Assembly: GCA_946479665.1 (NCBI GenBank)
Contig: CAMLGO010000061.1
Location: forward strand, 1-5,496
From: an uncultured Candidatus Saccharibacteria bacterium
GTDB lineage: Bacteria > Patescibacteria > Saccharimonadia > Saccharimonadales > UBA6022
Direction: 5' to 3'
DNA length: 5,496 nucleotides
Part shown: positions 1 to 5,496 of the stretch, one piece after another
Numbering within the stretch: the stretch's first letter is position 1
Layout: every line of letters starts with the position of its first letter
Translations under genes and position numbers: made by a program
Notes under the pieces: generated by a model
Told to the model about the DNA's origin: nothing
The model's input: only the letters and a program-made list of their open reading frames with translations
Databases searched by the model: none

Positions 1-413
1 ATACCACGCGTATCATCCTTGTCACCCTCAAAAGCCGCTCCCTTCATGGCGTTCGCAAGGTCAAGCGCATGTACAAACTCATCATACGCTTTCGTATTAT
101 TGCTAAATGTCTTGGTATTGATGACTGTTTGTAAATAGCCTTCGTAGGTTGTTATTGTACGGCTAGATGGACTTACCGAGATGCGATACGAGCGGAAGTT
201 TTCGTCAGCCACAATTGGCCCGCGTACGGTCATCTGAACGGAATGGTCAGCGCTTGTATTCAGCAGTGACTCACGCCCAACGTCAACCTTCGGCTGACTA
301 TTACCACCCTTAAAGACTGTTTGGCCAAGCGACACAATGGCAGAGATGGCAATGATAATAATGATCACTACTAAAGCGATCGGAATAATTCGTGATAGTT
401 TACCTCGTTGCAT
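1..413 (-). CDS. Single-pass membrane protein of unknown function, N-terminal part (3' end outside window)
   Basis: An open frame starts at the ATG at 413-411 and runs without a stop to the left edge, giving about 137 residues. It begins MQRGKLSRIIPIALVV, with a short basic N-terminus (R3, K5, R8). A strongly hydrophobic Ile/Val/Ala-rich segment follows at about residues 9-30, and then a soluble, mixed alpha/beta-looking part with no cysteines. This predicts an inner-membrane anchor with the bulk of the protein outside the cytoplasm. No lipobox or cleavage site is evident, so the segment is more likely an anchor than a cleaved signal. I do not recognise a catalytic motif and assign no function. 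The start is supported by a near-consensus promoter whose -10 ends 6 nt before the ATG; there is no Shine-Dalgarno. It lies 57 nt downstream of the pilin gene but appears to be transcribed separately. The call as a real gene is firm; the function is unknown. Confidence 0.8.
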   Translation of the reverse strand, partial: MQRGKLSRIIPIALVVIIIIIAISAIVSLGQTVFKGGNSQPKVDVGRESLLNTSADHSVQMTVRGPIVADENFRSYRISVSPSSRTITTYEGYLQTVINTKTFSNNTKAYDEFVHALDLANAMKGAAFEGDKDDTRG

Positions 414-419
414 GTGCCG

Positions 420-448
420 ATTTTATCATTTTTATGACAAAATGTCAA
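420..448 (-). promoter_or_regulatory. Strong sigma70-type promoter of the membrane-protein gene, predicted leaderless
   Basis: On the minus strand there is a perfect -35 TTGACA (448-443), a 17-nt spacer, and a -10 TAAAAT (425-420) preceded by TGA, which is an extended -10 TGn. Only CGGCAC separates the -10 from the ATG at 413. The usual start site, about 7 nt past the -10, is therefore the A of the ATG. No Shine-Dalgarno is present between promoter and gene. The initiation site itself is inferred. Confidence 0.8.
435..447. repeat. Short inverted repeat TGACA-N3-TGTCA overlapping the -35
   Basis: The + strand reads TGACAAAATGTCA, a perfect 5-bp inverted repeat around three bases. It covers five of the six -35 bases and the first part of the spacer of the membrane-gene promoter. 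It could be a repressor site, but because TTGACA itself contributes one arm, chance is a reasonable alternative. It is not a terminator: the stem is short and AT-rich. Confidence 0.35.
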
Positions 449-470
449 TATTACGGACCGTAGATGACAG

Positions 471-1424
471 CTACTGACTGGGGCCAGTTGAGGTTGCGTT
501 ATTTGGAGTGCCATTCCAGAGCCAGCTTGGCGAATCACCATCGGCATAATTTGGAAGGGCCGAACCTTTAGTAACCATGAATTCATCAAACCACAGGGTA
601 TCTCCTGCAGCTACCGTAAGGTTATAGATACCTGCCTGACTAACATAGACGCCTATTGCTGGCGTGTACGTTCCAGTGACTTTCGTCCAGGTATCGGCAG
701 GAATTGAAATGGTTCCCGCCGACCCGCCAGTATAACTACCGTCGGAAACCTTTGAGCCTTCCCAGTAGATAGTTGGAGTGCCGGCTTTGGTTGAGTACAC
801 CCAGAGGGACCACTGTACTTTTTCGCCAGCATTTACCTGCAGGCTATTTGCTGGCGGCCTTGCCATCGCTCCGGTATAACCAGACACTCCCGTGACATCT
901 ACCTTCAGAGAAGTTGGACCACTATGACTGCGGTCCGATGCAATCGACCTTGTTACGGCTATCGGCGATGCACCCGCCTGGCCAAACGCTGCAACACTAG
1001 CGCCGGCAGCATTCGGATTAGCTGCATAATTCGTCACTGCAGCCACCCCGCCGACGCCGTCACCTGGGCAGCCACCTTGCGCCGCTGTAGTGGCAATGTC
1101 GCTCACTTTAAAAGAAAGGTTGCCATTCGTACCGGTAATACAGTAAGTGGAGCCTGTACTTTGGAACTGGTAGCTTGTGCCGGGACTAGCCGGTAGACCC
1201 TTGCCGTTATCAACAGCCGCCTGAGTTAAAGGGTAACTGCCATTTAAGACGTTATCGGCTGCCATCTTTTTAGCGGCAAGCGCAAGATCTGATCTAAGAG
1301 CACTCTCTTTGGCGCGTTGCTGGACGCCGTTGTAGGCCACGATAGTTATCGCTGCCAGGATGCCAATAATAACAATAACAATCAACAGTTCGACGATCGT
1401 GAAGCCAGTTTGTTTTGTTCTCAT
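471..1424 (-). CDS. Type IV pilin-like protein with C-terminal carbohydrate-binding-like adhesin domain
   Basis: This 317-residue protein has a class III signal: MRTKQTG then F8TIVE, with prepilin peptidase cleavage expected after G7, Phe8 as the N-methylated first mature residue and E12 as the conserved Glu5. A hydrophobic helix covers about residues 8-31. A small pilin head follows to about residue 120, with C95 and C119 able to form the usual C-terminal disulfide. A Gly/Ala-rich linker (about 120-131) leads to a second domain at about 131-286. This domain opens TNYAANPNA, is rich in beta strands, Ser/Thr/Gly and Trp (W205, W208, W221, W246), and ends DTLWFDEFMV, resembling CBM4/9-type jelly-roll modules. 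The tail YADGDSPSW...WNGTPNNATSTGP resembles C-termini of phage and actinobacterial surface/tail proteins. Ordinary minor pilins are about half this length. It probably acts outside the cell as a pilus-tip or surface adhesin; the ligand is unknown. The ATG at 1424 is the only start that keeps the full class III signal, and it has its own promoter. Confidence 0.88.
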   Translation of the reverse strand: MRTKQTGFTIVELLIVIVIIGILAAITIVAYNGVQQRAKESALRSDLALAAKKMAADNVLNGSYPLTQAAVDNGKGLPASPGTSYQFQSTGSTYCITGTNGNLSFKVSDIATTAAQGGCPGDGVGGVAAVTNYAANPNAAGASVAAFGQAGASPIAVTRSIASDRSHSGPTSLKVDVTGVSGYTGAMARPPANSLQVNAGEKVQWSLWVYSTKAGTPTIYWEGSKVSDGSYTGGSAGTISIPADTWTKVTGTYTPAIGVYVSQAGIYNLTVAAGDTLWFDEFMVTKGSALPNYADGDSPSWLWNGTPNNATSTGPSQ

Positions 1425-1442
1425 AATCTATTGCAGATTATG
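1422..1442. repeat. Perfect 8-bp inverted repeat spanning the pilin -10 and start codon
   Basis: The arms CATAATCT and AGATTATG are exact reverse complements around five bases (GCAAT on the minus strand). One arm contains the -10 CATAAT and the other contains the ATG. A DNA-binding protein sitting here would cover the -10, the start site and the start codon. Because transcription should begin inside the repeat, the full hairpin would not form in an mRNA from this promoter. An operator is therefore a better reading than an RNA structure. In read-through RNA from dut it could hide the pilin start. Confidence 0.6.
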
Positions 1443-1465
1443 AAGCATGAGCGATATGGGGTCAA
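1437..1465 (-). promoter_or_regulatory. Sigma70-type promoter of the pilin gene
   Basis: The minus strand has -35 TTGACC (1465-1460), a 17-nt spacer, and -10 CATAAT (1442-1437), each matching the consensus at 5 of 6 positions. The -10 ends 12 nt before the ATG at 1424. The predicted start near 1430 leaves a leader of about six nucleotides, too short for a Shine-Dalgarno, and none is seen. The promoter fills the 58-nt gap between dut and the pilin gene, so the pilin can be expressed independently of the polA-dut operon. Confidence 0.72.
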
Positions 1466-1475
1466 GAAAGTGACC
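1460..1475. repeat. Inverted repeat GGTCA-N6-TGACC overlapping the pilin -35
   Basis: The + strand reads ggtca, six bases, tgacc. The left arm overlaps the -35 (1460-1465) and the right arm lies immediately upstream. It is 17 bp from the second inverted repeat at the -10. A five-base arm alone is weak evidence, but the position supports a possible activator or repressor site. No T-run follows, so it is not an intrinsic terminator for dut. Confidence 0.35.
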
Positions 1476-1482
1476 AGAGAGG

Positions 1483-1938
1483 CTACGCAGCTCGCATCGT
1501 AGCACCCGTGCTACCGAAGCCACCATCGCCACGCTCCGTATCGTCAAGCACCGCCACTTCTTCCCAGGCAGCCTGCTCATAACGCGCAAAGATCATCTGG
1601 GCAATGCGCATACCTGGCTCAATAACAAACGGTTCGTTACTAAGGTTAATTACAAGCGCGCCTACCTCACCCCGGTAGTCACTATCAATCGTACCGACAC
1701 CATTCACCATCGTAATGCCATGCTTGCTACTTAGGCCACTGCGAGCTCGTATTTGCGCTTCGTGACCTTCGGGCAGAGCTATCGCGATACCCGTAGGTAT
1801 AACAGCTCGCTCAAGCGGGCCAAGCGCCAGCGGGCCGTCGAGACGCGCATGGAGATCCATTCCGGCCGAGCCGGTCGTCTGATATTGCGGCAGCTGCGTA
1901 TCTTCATGCAGTCGCACAACCTTAATCTGTACACCCAT
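1483..1938 (-). CDS. dut: dUTP diphosphatase (dUTPase)
   Basis: This enzyme hydrolyses dUTP to dUMP and pyrophosphate in the cytoplasm, which keeps uracil out of DNA and supplies dUMP for dTMP synthesis. The 151-residue length is normal for the homotrimeric all-beta dUTPase family, and all five motifs are visible. Motif 1 is SAGMDLHA (24-31). Motif 2 is [11 protein letters not shown] (64-74). Motif 3 is [12 protein letters not shown] (82-93), with the expected catalytic Asp85 and the deoxyribose-selecting Tyr88. Motif 4 is RIAQMIF (111-117). The C-terminal motif 5 is [10 protein letters not shown] (136-145), with Arg136 and the uracil-stacking Phe141. The ATG at 1938 directly follows the polA TAG with no spacing, and a good Shine-Dalgarno lies inside the end of polA, so translation is probably coupled. 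The sequence suggests a bacterial housekeeping enzyme with no sign of truncation. Confidence 0.97.
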
Positions 1939-4494
1939 CTACAACTCTCCCCAATTTTTACCGATTGATACATCAACATTTAATTTGATCTTTAGTTCTG
2001 GATAAATATTCTCCATCGTTGTCTGCAAAAGTTCGGCAACCTTGTCGGCATTTTCGATCGGACATTCGATCAAAATACTGTCGTGGATTTGCAGAATTTG
2101 CTCACCAAGATCGCCGAGCTTCTTGTCGACTTCGATCATAGCCATCTTCATAAGATCAGCCTCGGTGCCCTGAATCGGCATATTGGCAGCCGCGCGCTTC
2201 GCACCTTCGCGCACCATGAAATTACTGCTATTTACGTCTGGCGTCGGCCGGCGGCGGCCGAAATACGTCTCGACGTAACCTTCGGATGCAGCTTTTCGTA
2301 ATGTCTCGTCGATGAAGGCACGGATCGGGGCGCGGATCGCAAAATATTGATCAATGAATTCCTTCGCCTGCGTAAAGTTCATGCCAGTAGCGGCTGAGAG
2401 TCCGTGAGGACTCATGCCGTAGAGTACGCCGAAGTTAATCACCTTGGCGTCGCGGCGCTGTGCCTTAGTAACATCATCCATCGGAATGCCGTAGACTTCG
2501 CTGGCGGTTTTAGTATGAATATCAACATCGCCGTTGAAGTCGTTGATCAGCTTCTTGTCGTCAGCCAGGACCGCCGCAAGACGAAGCTCAAATTGTGAAT
2601 AATCGGCACTGACAAATACCTTATCACCCTCTGGAATAAAGGCTTCACGGATTTTGCGGCCGAGCTCGGTGCGCACCGGAATGTTTTGCAAGTTCGGATT
2701 AGTCGATGATAGCCGGCCGGTACTTGCCACATCTTGATTGAACGTCGTATGAACTCGTCCGTGCTCATCAGCTAGTTTTGGCAGCGTATCGATATAGGTA
2801 TTCTTCAGCTTGGCCAGCTCGCGCGTGCGCTCAATGAGTTCAATAATCGGATGCTGCCCCCGCAGCTTGTCGAGTTCTTTTTGGCCGGTACTATAGCTGG
2901 TTTTTCCCTTCTTAATACCGGTCGTCGGCAACTGCAGCTTCGTGAATAATACCTCAGATAGTTGCGCTGGACTGGCAATATTGAACTCGTAGCCAACCAT
3001 TGCATACATTTCTTGTTCAAGCTTGGCATGTTCACCACCAAGCTCATCGCTCATACGTGCCAAAAAGTCTTTATCGATCTTAATGCCGCGGCGCTCCATG
3101 GCAAACAAATGGTATGTGAGCGGAAAATCTAACTCATACGCAATCTTCGCGAGCTTCGGCTCATTTGAAAATACAGCCGTCTGCTCGTCATAAAGCCTCC
3201 AGAATGCCGCTAGGGTCGCAGCCGAGCCAATAACTGGCTCACCGATAAGACCCTCGAGACTACGATCACGCAGCAGTGAATCAATCAAAAAAGCTGCCTG
3301 ATGGATATCGTGCAGTTCGTGGAAGCGCACGTTTATTCCATCGTCAGCCAATTGGTGATAAAGAAGCTTGCTGTCATAGCTAATAACTCTTGTCATTTCG
3401 AGGACGCGCCAGACGCTGCTATCAACTTCACCTATAGGAAGTACGTGCACCGTCTTTGCGTCTGTCGAGAGCCATAGCTGACGAGATTCGGTGTCAAAAT
3501 GAAGCGCGACCGGCCCGTCAACCGATAGCGTCGCTGGCCACGGTGTTGCCGTAAGCGGCGCGAGCGTCGACGGAAGAGAGGTGTCGAATAGACCCGCCTG
3601 ATCAGTGCCCGCTGGCGCCTCGCGCATATGCTTTGGAAGGCGGCGCACCAACGAACTAAATTCAAATTTTTGAAGAATGGCGGCAACGGCCGGAAGATCC
3701 GTGTTCTTCACATCGGCCTTAGCCCAATCGAGTTCAATTGGTGCATCCGTCCAGATGCGCCCCACTTCTTTGCTCATAAATGCCAAGTCCTTGCCGGCCT
3801 CAAGCTTTTTCGCCACAGTCGGCTTGATATCCGCTAGATGTTCGTAGACGTTTTCGAGTGTCGTAAACTCCTGCAGTAGCTGCACGCCCGTCTTCTCACC
3901 AATACCCGGCACGCCTGGTAGGTTATCGGATGAATCACCCTTTAGCGACTTGAGATCGAGAAACTGTTCAACGCCAATGCCATATTTGTTCTCAAAGTAA
4001 TCAACATCAAATTCTTCAATGTTACTCAGGCCATTTTTAAGCGCATACACTTTTGTCTTTGGACCAATAAGCTGCAGCGCATCAAGGTCGCTTGTAAGCA
4101 AACATGTTTCGATTCCCTCTGCCGTCGCCTGCTTGGCAAACGCGCCCAAAATATCATCAGCCTCATAATCATCCAGTTCGTAGAGCGGCCACCCAAATGC
4201 ATCGAGCAGTTCAAATAGCATCGGCAGCTGCGCGTAAAAATCGTCTGGTGCTTTTTTACGACCAGCTTTATATTCAGGGTAAATTTCGCGCCGTTTGCGG
4301 ATATTGGTACCCTTTTTATCCCAGGCAACTGCCACATAGTCAGGCTCGAGCTTTTTAATCAGCTCGATTGCCAGGCTCGCAAACCCGAATACTCCACCGG
4401 TTGGCGTTCCATCCTTGAGACTGAGCCCCGGCATTGCGTAGTAGCCTCTGTAAAAAACTGATTTTCCGTCGATAACTGCCAGGCGTTTTGTCAT
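1939..4494 (-). CDS. polA: DNA polymerase I (5' nuclease plus polymerase, proofreading domain probably inactive)
   Basis: This family A polymerase acts in Okazaki-fragment processing and repair gap filling. Its 851 residues compare with about 830-930 for the family. The 5'-nuclease domain (about 1-290) has VIDGKSVFYR with Asp9, YPEYKAGR (72-79), EADD (111-114), TSDLDALQL (134-142) and GDSSDNLPGVPGIGEKT (186-202), so it looks active. The 3'-5' exonuclease-like domain (about 325-450) keeps FDTE (333-336). By eye, however, the E. coli D424 position is Leu378 and D501 is about Ala425, so proofreading is probably lost. The polymerase part has STGRLSSTNPNLQNIP (591-606), motif A DYSQFELR (631-638, Asp631), the O helix RRDAKVINFGVLYG (680-693; Arg680, Lys684, Phe688, Tyr692), and motif C IHDS (803-806, Asp805). 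The usual motif C is HDE and motif A usually has Ile where Phe635 is here. It lies 15 nt after the WhiB-type gene, has its own extended -10, and abuts dut. Confidence 0.98.
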   Translation of the reverse strand: MTKRLAVIDGKSVFYRGYYAMPGLSLKDGTPTGGVFGFASLAIELIKKLEPDYVAVAWDKKGTNIRKRREIYPEYKAGRKKAPDDFYAQLPMLFELLDAFGWPLYELDDYEADDILGAFAKQATAEGIETCLLTSDLDALQLIGPKTKVYALKNGLSNIEEFDVDYFENKYGIGVEQFLDLKSLKGDSSDNLPGVPGIGEKTGVQLLQEFTTLENVYEHLADIKPTVAKKLEAGKDLAFMSKEVGRIWTDAPIELDWAKADVKNTDLPAVAAILQKFEFSSLVRRLPKHMREAPAGTDQAGLFDTSLPSTLAPLTATPWPATLSVDGPVALHFDTESRQLWLSTDAKTVHVLPIGEVDSSVWRVLEMTRVISYDSKLLYHQLADDGINVRFHELHDIHQAAFLIDSLLRDRSLEGLIGEPVIGSAATLAAFWRLYDEQTAVFSNEPKLAKIAYELDFPLTYHLFAMERRGIKIDKDFLARMSDELGGEHAKLEQEMYAMVGYEFNIASPAQLSEVLFTKLQLPTTGIKKGKTSYSTGQKELDKLRGQHPIIELIERTRELAKLKNTYIDTLPKLADEHGRVHTTFNQDVASTGRLSSTNPNLQNIPVRTELGRKIREAFIPEGDKVFVSADYSQFELRLAAVLADDKKLINDFNGDVDIHTKTASEVYGIPMDDVTKAQRRDAKVINFGVLYGMSPHGLSAATGMNFTQAKEFIDQYFAIRAPIRAFIDETLRKAASEGYVETYFGRRRPTPDVNSSNFMVREGAKRAAANMPIQGTEADLMKMAMIEVDKKLGDLGEQILQIHDSILIECPIENADKVAELLQTTMENIYPELKIKLNVDVSIGKNWGEL
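1947..1952 (-). promoter_or_regulatory. Shine-Dalgarno of dut within the polA 3' end
   Basis: GGGGAG on the minus strand ends 8 nt before the dut ATG and lies in the last codons of polA (TGG GGA GAG TTG TAG). It is the only clear Shine-Dalgarno in the window. This fits dut being an operon-internal gene that must be initiated or re-initiated by ribosomes on a polycistronic mRNA. Confidence 0.8.
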
Positions 4495-4500
4495 ATATTC

Positions 4501-4529
4501 AGTATACCATCAGGGAGACGATCGGTGAG
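4501..4529 (-). promoter_or_regulatory. Extended -10 promoter of polA, predicted leaderless
   Basis: The minus strand reads TGG TATACT: a -10 at 4506-4501 matching TATAAT at 5 of 6 positions, with an upstream TG extension (4509-4508). GAATAT then separates it from the ATG at 4494. The predicted start is the A of the ATG, the same 6-nt geometry as at the left-hand membrane gene. The -35 region at 4529-4524 (CTCACC, 17-nt spacer) is poor and lies inside the preceding gene, which is tolerable for an extended -10 promoter. There is no Shine-Dalgarno before polA, which supports leaderless translation. Read-through from the upstream gene also remains possible. Confidence 0.6.
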
Positions 4530-5448
4530 CACGGCGGCGCTCGCGCTCGCTCAGACCACCCCAAATACCGTGACGTTCGTCATTCTCCAATGCCGCTTCT
4601 AGACACTGAGAGCGCACGTCGCATGCATCGCAGACCTTCTTTGCGTCTCGTGTCGAACCACCCTTTTCGGGAAAGAAAATTTCTGGGTCAGTCTGAGTAC
4701 ATAAGGCATCTTGCTGCCAATCTAAATCCTCAGCGACAACGCCTCGATTTACTGTTGTCGGCACTCGCTCTTTGAGGAATATGCTACTAATACGCTGCAG
4801 CTCCTTGCTAATCACTACCTCCTCTAGGTCATGAGTCAAGGCAAGTTCAGCTACCGATGCACCTTCTAGCCATTGCGAACTGATGCGCAGCCAGATTTCC
4901 ATGGAAGGTGTGGAAAGGTATTGCGCTACCTGGCGTACACATTCTCGAAGTCTTGCATCATCAAATGTATTAATAAGATCACGACTGGCCGACAATTCAT
5001 CATCAATATATACAGGTGAAGGTAATAGTTCAACAGCTATTTTCAAGGGAATGTATGCACCCGAAAGCTTCCTGCCTAGCTCGTGCGACCGAGTCGCTCG
5101 CTCGGGCAAATAACTTGCTGCTATTTTCCGTGCCATATCGAGCGCCTCTGCTAGGCCTACCTCGCCTAACGTCTCTACTGCTTCGTCGGGATAGCCTGCG
5201 ACATATAGACCGATCGTCGTTTGATACTCCAATGGAAGCTGAGGGAATAATAACTTGAGACGACTAAGATTTGCCAAGCTACTCTCATAACCAAACAAGT
5301 CATGAAGTCGCTGTTCGGTAGAACGCGAAACCGGCTGGGGCGCCTCGGTATGTCCGTGCAGGTATTCTGCCATCCAGTGGGCAGTCGTCTGAGCTTGCTC
5401 CACGAGCGTTACGACTGATTCTTCTTGAATAAGGGATTGTCTTTCCAT
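4510..5448 (-). CDS. WhiB-like Fe-S regulator with long helical N-terminal region
   Basis: The C-terminal 70 residues of this 312-residue protein form a WhiB-type domain: DWQQDALC (C250), VCDAC (C273, C276) and QC (C282), spaced C-X22-C-X2-C-X5-C as expected for a 4Fe-4S cluster. GIWGGLSERERRR (294-306) supplies the G[IV]WGG turn and basic DNA-binding tail. WhiB proteins are small (about 80-130 residues) cytoplasmic transcription factors that sense O2, NO or redox state and commonly bind sigma region 4. Here about 240 residues precede the domain. They look helical, with no membrane segment or signal. Two stretches resemble helix-turn-helix or sigma region 4-like segments: about 70-108 (LPLEYQTTIGLYVAGYPDEA...) and about 185-224 (WLEGASVAELALTHDLEEVV...). 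That resemblance is by eye and uncertain. The ATG at 5448 is the first in frame after a TAA at 5466-5464; no strong Shine-Dalgarno or promoter is seen. The targets are unknown; polA follows after 15 nt. Confidence 0.85.
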   Translation of the reverse strand: MERQSLIQEESVVTLVEQAQTTAHWMAEYLHGHTEAPQPVSRSTEQRLHDLFGYESSLANLSRLKLLFPQLPLEYQTTIGLYVAGYPDEAVETLGEVGLAEALDMARKIAASYLPERATRSHELGRKLSGAYIPLKIAVELLPSPVYIDDELSASRDLINTFDDARLRECVRQVAQYLSTPSMEIWLRISSQWLEGASVAELALTHDLEEVVISKELQRISSIFLKERVPTTVNRGVVAEDLDWQQDALCTQTDPEIFFPEKGGSTRDAKKVCDACDVRSQCLEAALENDERHGIWGGLSERERRRAHRSSP

Positions 5449-5452
5449 GACA

Positions 5453-5496
5453 TTAGTCTCTTGTTAACTCGGCAATCCCAGCAACAACATAGCGCT
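5453..5496 (-). CDS. Possible C-terminal end of an upstream gene
   Basis: At the right edge one minus-strand frame reads RYVVAGIAELTRD and stops at TAA (5455-5453), 4 nt before the WhiB-type ATG. The composition looks protein-like, and the tight spacing would fit an operon and explain why no strong promoter is visible before the WhiB-type gene. Another frame also stays open from the edge to a TAA at 5466-5464 (ending LLLGLPS), so the assignment is tentative. There is too little sequence to name a function. Confidence 0.35.
   Translation of the reverse strand, partial: RYVVAGIAELTRD

Follow-up and report, generated by a model that had tools for sequence, protein, structure and literature searches.

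What does a WhiB domain do at the end of a long helical protein in a Saccharibacterium? The question is raised by contig CAMLGO010000061.1 of an uncultured Candidatus Saccharibacteria bacterium (assembly GCA_946479665.1), of which we analysed positions 1 to 5,496 (5,496 nucleotides, referred to here as the window). An open reading frame with an ATG start at 4510-5448 on its minus strand encodes a WhiB-type protein of 312 amino acids. This protein is probably a Saccharibacterial transcription cofactor of the class II WhiB type, with a WhiB module that would dock on a sigma factor and an acidic N-terminus that would recruit a partner. A first-pass annotation, made from the letters of the sequence, had described a WhiB domain behind a long helical N-terminus and raised the possibility that the N-terminus carries a unit like sigma factor region 4. 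The observation was confirmed, and its first interpretation was partly supported.

The gene is not a chance open reading frame but codes for a conserved protein, since a near copy (P0001, 99% identical) lies on another contig and two relatives match over 98-99% of the length (P0002 and P0003, with 40% and 39% identity). Searching proteins with residues 1-240 recovered P0001 only and missed P0002 and P0003, which are about 40% identical, so its reach is limited. Scans for relatives in genome contigs (two scans) and viral contigs (one scan) gave none, and nothing is concluded from this absence. All three contig scans, run on two collections, returned exactly 28 candidate stretches each, an odd and unexplained figure.

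The WhiB module and its probable contact with sigma-A

The features of the gene and of its C-terminal module are as follows.

4510..5448, minus strand: gene of the long WhiB-type protein (open reading frame; full-length relatives)
4531..4719, minus strand: WhiB domain, residues 244-306 (PF02467, E 2e-25)
4699..4701, minus strand: codon of C250 (motif position)
4630..4632, minus strand: codon of C273 (motif position)
4621..4623, minus strand: codon of C276 (motif position)
4603..4605, minus strand: codon of C282 (motif position)
4555..4569, minus strand: GIWGG turn, residues 294-298 (motif position)

The identity of the domain is established by its PF02467 match, which scores 89.6 bits where the cut-off is 23.6. 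As annotated at first pass, the WhiB signature is complete, with four cysteines spaced C-X22-C-X2-C-X5-C, the GIWGG turn and an Arg-rich tail after it; an additional cysteine stands at position 170. The search for WhiB relatives gave 1140 matches, of which the best 120 were listed, and all counts of WhiB relatives below refer to these. In an alignment of 50 long proteins (the window protein and 49 of the 120 listed matches, with P0001, the short P0012 and 69 others set aside), every row has W244, the four cysteines, F258 and F259, and 48 rows have W296. The module most likely holds the predicted [4Fe-4S] cluster.

In sequence, the module is nearest to class II (WhiB/WhiB2/WhcD). It shares 72-74% identity with WhiB of Streptomyces venezuelae (class II WhiB-like (Wbl) protein; PDB 8dy7, 8dy9), including the same four cysteines, FF pair, GIWGG and basic tail. 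However, the S. venezuelae chain in these structures, at 87 residues, lacks the N-terminal domain, and the protein acts with WhiA in an actinobacterium. The WhiB1, WhiB3, WhiB6 and WhiB7 proteins of Mycobacterium tuberculosis, whose structures were determined together with sigma-A region 4, have the same fold and cluster motif but are short, belong to other classes and are only 25-46% identical (WhiB1 43-46%, WhiB3 35-41%, WhiB7 30-41%, WhiB6 25-33%). Streptomyces WblM, WblO and WblP are, like the window protein, larger than usual Wbl proteins, according to passages of a 2018 review (PMC6282962).

According to another report, alanine at WhiB3 F31, F32 or W76 (WhiB1 F17, F18, W60) abolishes binding to sigma-A4 (PMC10245118). 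Reading the motifs side by side, F258, F259 and W296 of the window protein would be the counterparts of WhiB3 F31, F32 and W76. Because these FF and Trp contact residues are kept, we infer that the module binds sigma-A region 4, and it would then dock on the organism's own primary sigma factor at region 4, in the manner of actinobacterial WhiB proteins. Passages of the 2018 review also indicate that class II WhiB works with WhiA, that Corynebacterium WhcD alone cannot bind promoter DNA, and that WhiA occurs well beyond Actinobacteria, being far more widespread than WhiB (PMC6282962). This makes WhiA a candidate partner of the window protein.

The helical N-terminus

The region before the WhiB module contains three parts.

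5110..5406, minus strand: N-terminal helical domain (N-domain), residues 15-113, acidic (AlphaFold; hidden Markov model (HMM))
5014..5109, minus strand: low-confidence linker, residues 114-145 (predicted local distance difference test below 50 for 117-146)
4765..5013, minus strand: second helical unit, residues 146-228, helix-turn-helix (HTH)-shaped, weakly sigma-region-4-like (AlphaFold; conserved in P0002 and P0003)

The N-domain (~110 residues) was confidently predicted by AlphaFold, and the two HTH-like stretches expected before the WhiB domain were recovered as HTH-like helix runs at about 57-113 and 164-225. An HMM of the N-domain, trained on 22 of the listed matches, detects the window protein and 50 of the 120, 28 of which were not training rows, while the remaining 70 give no match at E 1e-3. 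Of the 50 aligned long proteins, all have G85 and 49 each have W25 and R47; the set includes one row (P0073) without an N-domain by HMM. Architectures vary: the N-domain may be followed by a linker and WhiB, the second helical unit may lie between them (window protein, P0002, P0003), or a long C-terminal extension may be present, with more than 100 residues beyond WhiB in 11 of the 120 (P0011, P0013, P0016, P0019, P0023, P0024, P0025, P0037, P0042, P0043, P0045). The window protein thus belongs to a wider group rather than standing alone; its N-terminus is long and helical, as first described, but not unique. As a separate observation, the WhiB part of phrog_8273, a PHROGs family of 216 positions, spans 106-172, which places about 105 residues before WhiB in some phage proteins.

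The N-domain is acidic in all 45 sequences that one alignment contains of the 51 with this domain (without P0005, P0007, P0009, P0012 and P0057, and with P0001 representing the window), the net charge of residues 15-113 having a median of -10 and a range of -15 to -4; that of residues 54-113 is never positive. Such a charge is unlike that of a DNA-binding HTH. The acidity favours protein contact over DNA binding and suggests that the N-domain contacts a protein partner.

Comparisons with known folds gave little. The N-domain matched no Pfam family above cut-off, its likeness to HTH units or sigma region 4 is weak, and the best Foldseek matches of the N-domain alone had E 2.9 (PDB) and 0.61 (viral models). 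In a PDB profile search, a designed 'protein origami' (E 8.2e-6) was rejected as a relative, being a designed repetitive chain whose best single stretch has E 0.11; the next matches were nucleolar GTP-binding proteins (E 0.022 to 0.25). Besides WhiB, a single Pfam model turns up repeatedly among the 50 long proteins, a sub-threshold winged-helix (15 members, best E 0.014), which in P0117, the one case examined, lies on the WhiB domain.

The second unit is rarer than the N-domain, being seen among the listed matches only in P0002 and P0003 besides the window protein. Its alignment by hhalign with the corresponding region of P0018, P0022 and P0117 (probability 7%, E 0.0051 in one comparison, 36 columns) is only suggestive of its presence there. 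That the N-domain and the second unit are repeats was considered, as their helix order is similar, and rejected (hhalign probability 0.7%, P 0.079, 13 columns). The first-pass annotation had likened the first HTH stretch to sigma region 4; the better likeness, still sub-threshold, lies in the second unit. Against NCBIfam, a hand-made consensus of this unit matched sigma-4 models and nothing else, the best at 16.5 bits against a cut-off of 42.9. No sigma factor match exceeded a curated cut-off, and no Pfam sigma family was listed for the window protein or its long relatives. A PDB profile search with the second unit gave 12 rows, 3 ArsR-type and 8 human kinase among them, with an ArsR-family regulator as the best (E 0.22). 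Region 4 of sigma factors such as SigH (3mzy), at 10% identity, falls below every curated cut-off, and KorA (5clv), at 17% identity, is a plasmid-borne repressor without WhiB. Residues 1-240 are modelled with HTH-like helices, as proposed, but no sigma or HTH family over cut-off goes with them.

These results bear on the idea of a built-in sigma region 4, in which WhiB would bind the sigma-4-like unit of its own chain, either holding it shut or replacing the sigma factor. We consider this very unlikely. No sigma match reaches a cut-off, most long relatives have no second unit yet keep all the sigma-contact residues, and the AlphaFold model of the joined parts (predicted template modelling score 0.46) places them unreliably relative to each other. 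An equally improbable variant is a split sigma-like activator, in which WhiB would capture the housekeeping sigma factor by its region 4 while the sigma-4-shaped unit or units take over the seat of that region on RNA polymerase (the beta-flap) or its promoter contact. Rather, the acidic N-domain, together with the second HTH-shaped unit in a sub-group, most likely consists of protein-protein modules, which would recruit a partner to the promoter or keep it there, replacing or standing beside a protein such as WhiA.

Several observations weigh against a cofactor that docks on sigma and recruits a protein. The acidity of the N-domain does not exclude DNA binding by part of it, its last helix carries a net positive charge in 6 of the 45 rows, and the second unit lies close to neutrality (-3, -1 and +1 in the three proteins). 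The HTH-shaped units might then bind DNA, so that the fusion supplies the sequence-specific contact that WhiA gives elsewhere and the protein is a one-piece activator at its own sites. The shape of both units, the exclusive sigma-4 matches of the second-unit consensus and a weak Pfam HTH_28 match in P0003 (185-209, E 0.032) speak for such an activator, which we regard as unlikely, given that the N-domain is acidic in every row and that the second unit, found in three proteins and doubtful in three more, passes no curated cut-off. The WhiB module itself also varies: P0003 has GILAG and P0118 GIRGG in place of GIWGG, so the contact Trp is not universal, and the WhiB parts of P0002 and P0003 are only 57% and 49% identical to that of the window protein, against a median of 75% (49 rows), which suggests changed or relaxed demands in that sub-group. 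In these proteins WhiB might no longer work through sigma, its cluster sensing redox state or nitric oxide, or decaying, while the N-terminal part does the main work. The long branches of P0002 and P0003 in the WhiB-domain tree point the same way. However, the window protein retains every residue checked and its high identity to S. venezuelae WhiB, and we judge this loss of sigma-dependence to be rather improbable.

Lineage, origin and gene neighbourhood

Two genes follow whiB on the same strand.

1939..4494, minus strand: polA, 15 nt downstream of whiB (domain match; PolA lineage)
1483..1938, minus strand: dut (dUTPase), directly after polA (domain match; position)

The polA product is 92% identical to PolA of a named Saccharimonadales metagenome-assembled genome, the nearest named bacterium. 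Among the best 120 PolA matches (8000 candidates scored), eight are named, seven as Candidatus Saccharimonadales/Saccharibacteria and one as 'compost metagenome'. The contig is placed in Saccharimonadales by these matches. The WhiB relative P0002 has the same longest contig (79,358 bases) as the PolA match P0145 (83%), and P0004 the same (35,866 bases) as P0174 (79%); both are therefore probably near polA on Saccharibacterial contigs, which suggests that the linkage of whiB and polA extends to these relatives. Several relatives with the N-domain are annotated in the database as 'WhiB family redox-sensing transcriptional regulator', so that their WhiB nature is already on record. The named listed matches without the N-domain are from Arthrobacter, Paenarthrobacter, Tersicoccus, Nesterenkonia, Sinomonas and Psychromicrobium, which we take to be all Actinobacteria, and one 'bacterium RCC_150'.

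Many Saccharibacteria live on Actinobacteria, and the first-pass annotation had left transfer from a host and old inheritance side by side. The WhiB-domain phylogeny that it proposed was built from 82 rows (the 50 long proteins, 15 of the 70 listed without the N-domain, 14 plasmid or phage loci and 3 solved proteins), the label 'SAC' denoting the long architecture rather than an established taxonomy and including P0073. Over 76 columns, 11 of 77 inner branches are well supported and the bootstrap had not settled. The two labels cluster, needing 8 changes against a shuffled mean of 25.6 (0 of 500 shuffles as low), but they are intermixed: the well supported branches force 4 label changes, and a single origin appears in no bootstrap tree. 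The direction of transfer is thus unreadable, and this poorly supported tree does not distinguish transfer from old inheritance. The GC contents of the WhiB part (0.56), polA (0.50) and dut (0.56) give no sign, as weak evidence, of recent import from a GC-rich host.

Three phage sequences were considered as relatives of the N-domain and rejected. The 76% WhiB match at 276-593 of 'Bacteriophage sp.' L001 (MT836047.1) is an ordinary WhiB of 105 amino acids without the N-domain; this sequence may be a bacterial genome fragment. Streptomyces phage Marky matches 67% of the query, in a stretch that begins within a phage helicase gene, and the coding sequence of the Gordonia phage Skog WhiB, at 321 bp, is too short for an N-domain.

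The gaps between whiB, polA and dut are 15 nt (4495-4509) and 0 nt (1938/1939). Because the genes lie so close, co-transcription is plausible and would tie whiB to replication or cell division. Here too there is a counterpoint, as a promoter scan gave 5 sites against 6.5 in shuffles, no excess, and the case for an operon is one of distance. Further along the same strand, 471-1424 codes for a Type IV pilin (PF07963, E 2.4e-7), whose solved matches are pilins covering mostly the N-terminus. A carbohydrate-binding module (PF02018, 161-256, E 2.4e-4, 21.9 bits, below the cut-off of 25.9) is weakly matched by the C-terminal part of the pilin, and an adhesive pilin is possible.

Implications for the WhiB family

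The interest of this protein lies more in its lineage and in the shared additional domain than in the sigma-4 idea, although a split sigma-like activator, if true, would mean that a single protein redirects RNA polymerase in a lineage outside Actinobacteria. Passages of the 2018 review describe Wbl proteins as exclusive to Actinobacteria (PMC6282962), a range that the window does not fit, as PolA puts the contig in Saccharimonadales. In the open-licence literature on WhiB/WhiA in Saccharibacteria, none of the papers listed treats a Saccharibacterial WhiB by its title or the start of its abstract; in passages of PMC12369343, the WhiB is that of the host Schaalia odontolytica. A diverse set of Saccharibacterial WhiB proteins would break the Actinobacteria-only statement, and a Saccharibacterial WhiB would naturally test the remark of the same review that WhiA is more widespread than WhiB (PMC6282962). 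In dozens of proteins WhiB is paired with an undescribed acidic domain, about 110 residues long, which would reveal the way in which a WhiB protein acquires specificity, should it prove to be a partner module.
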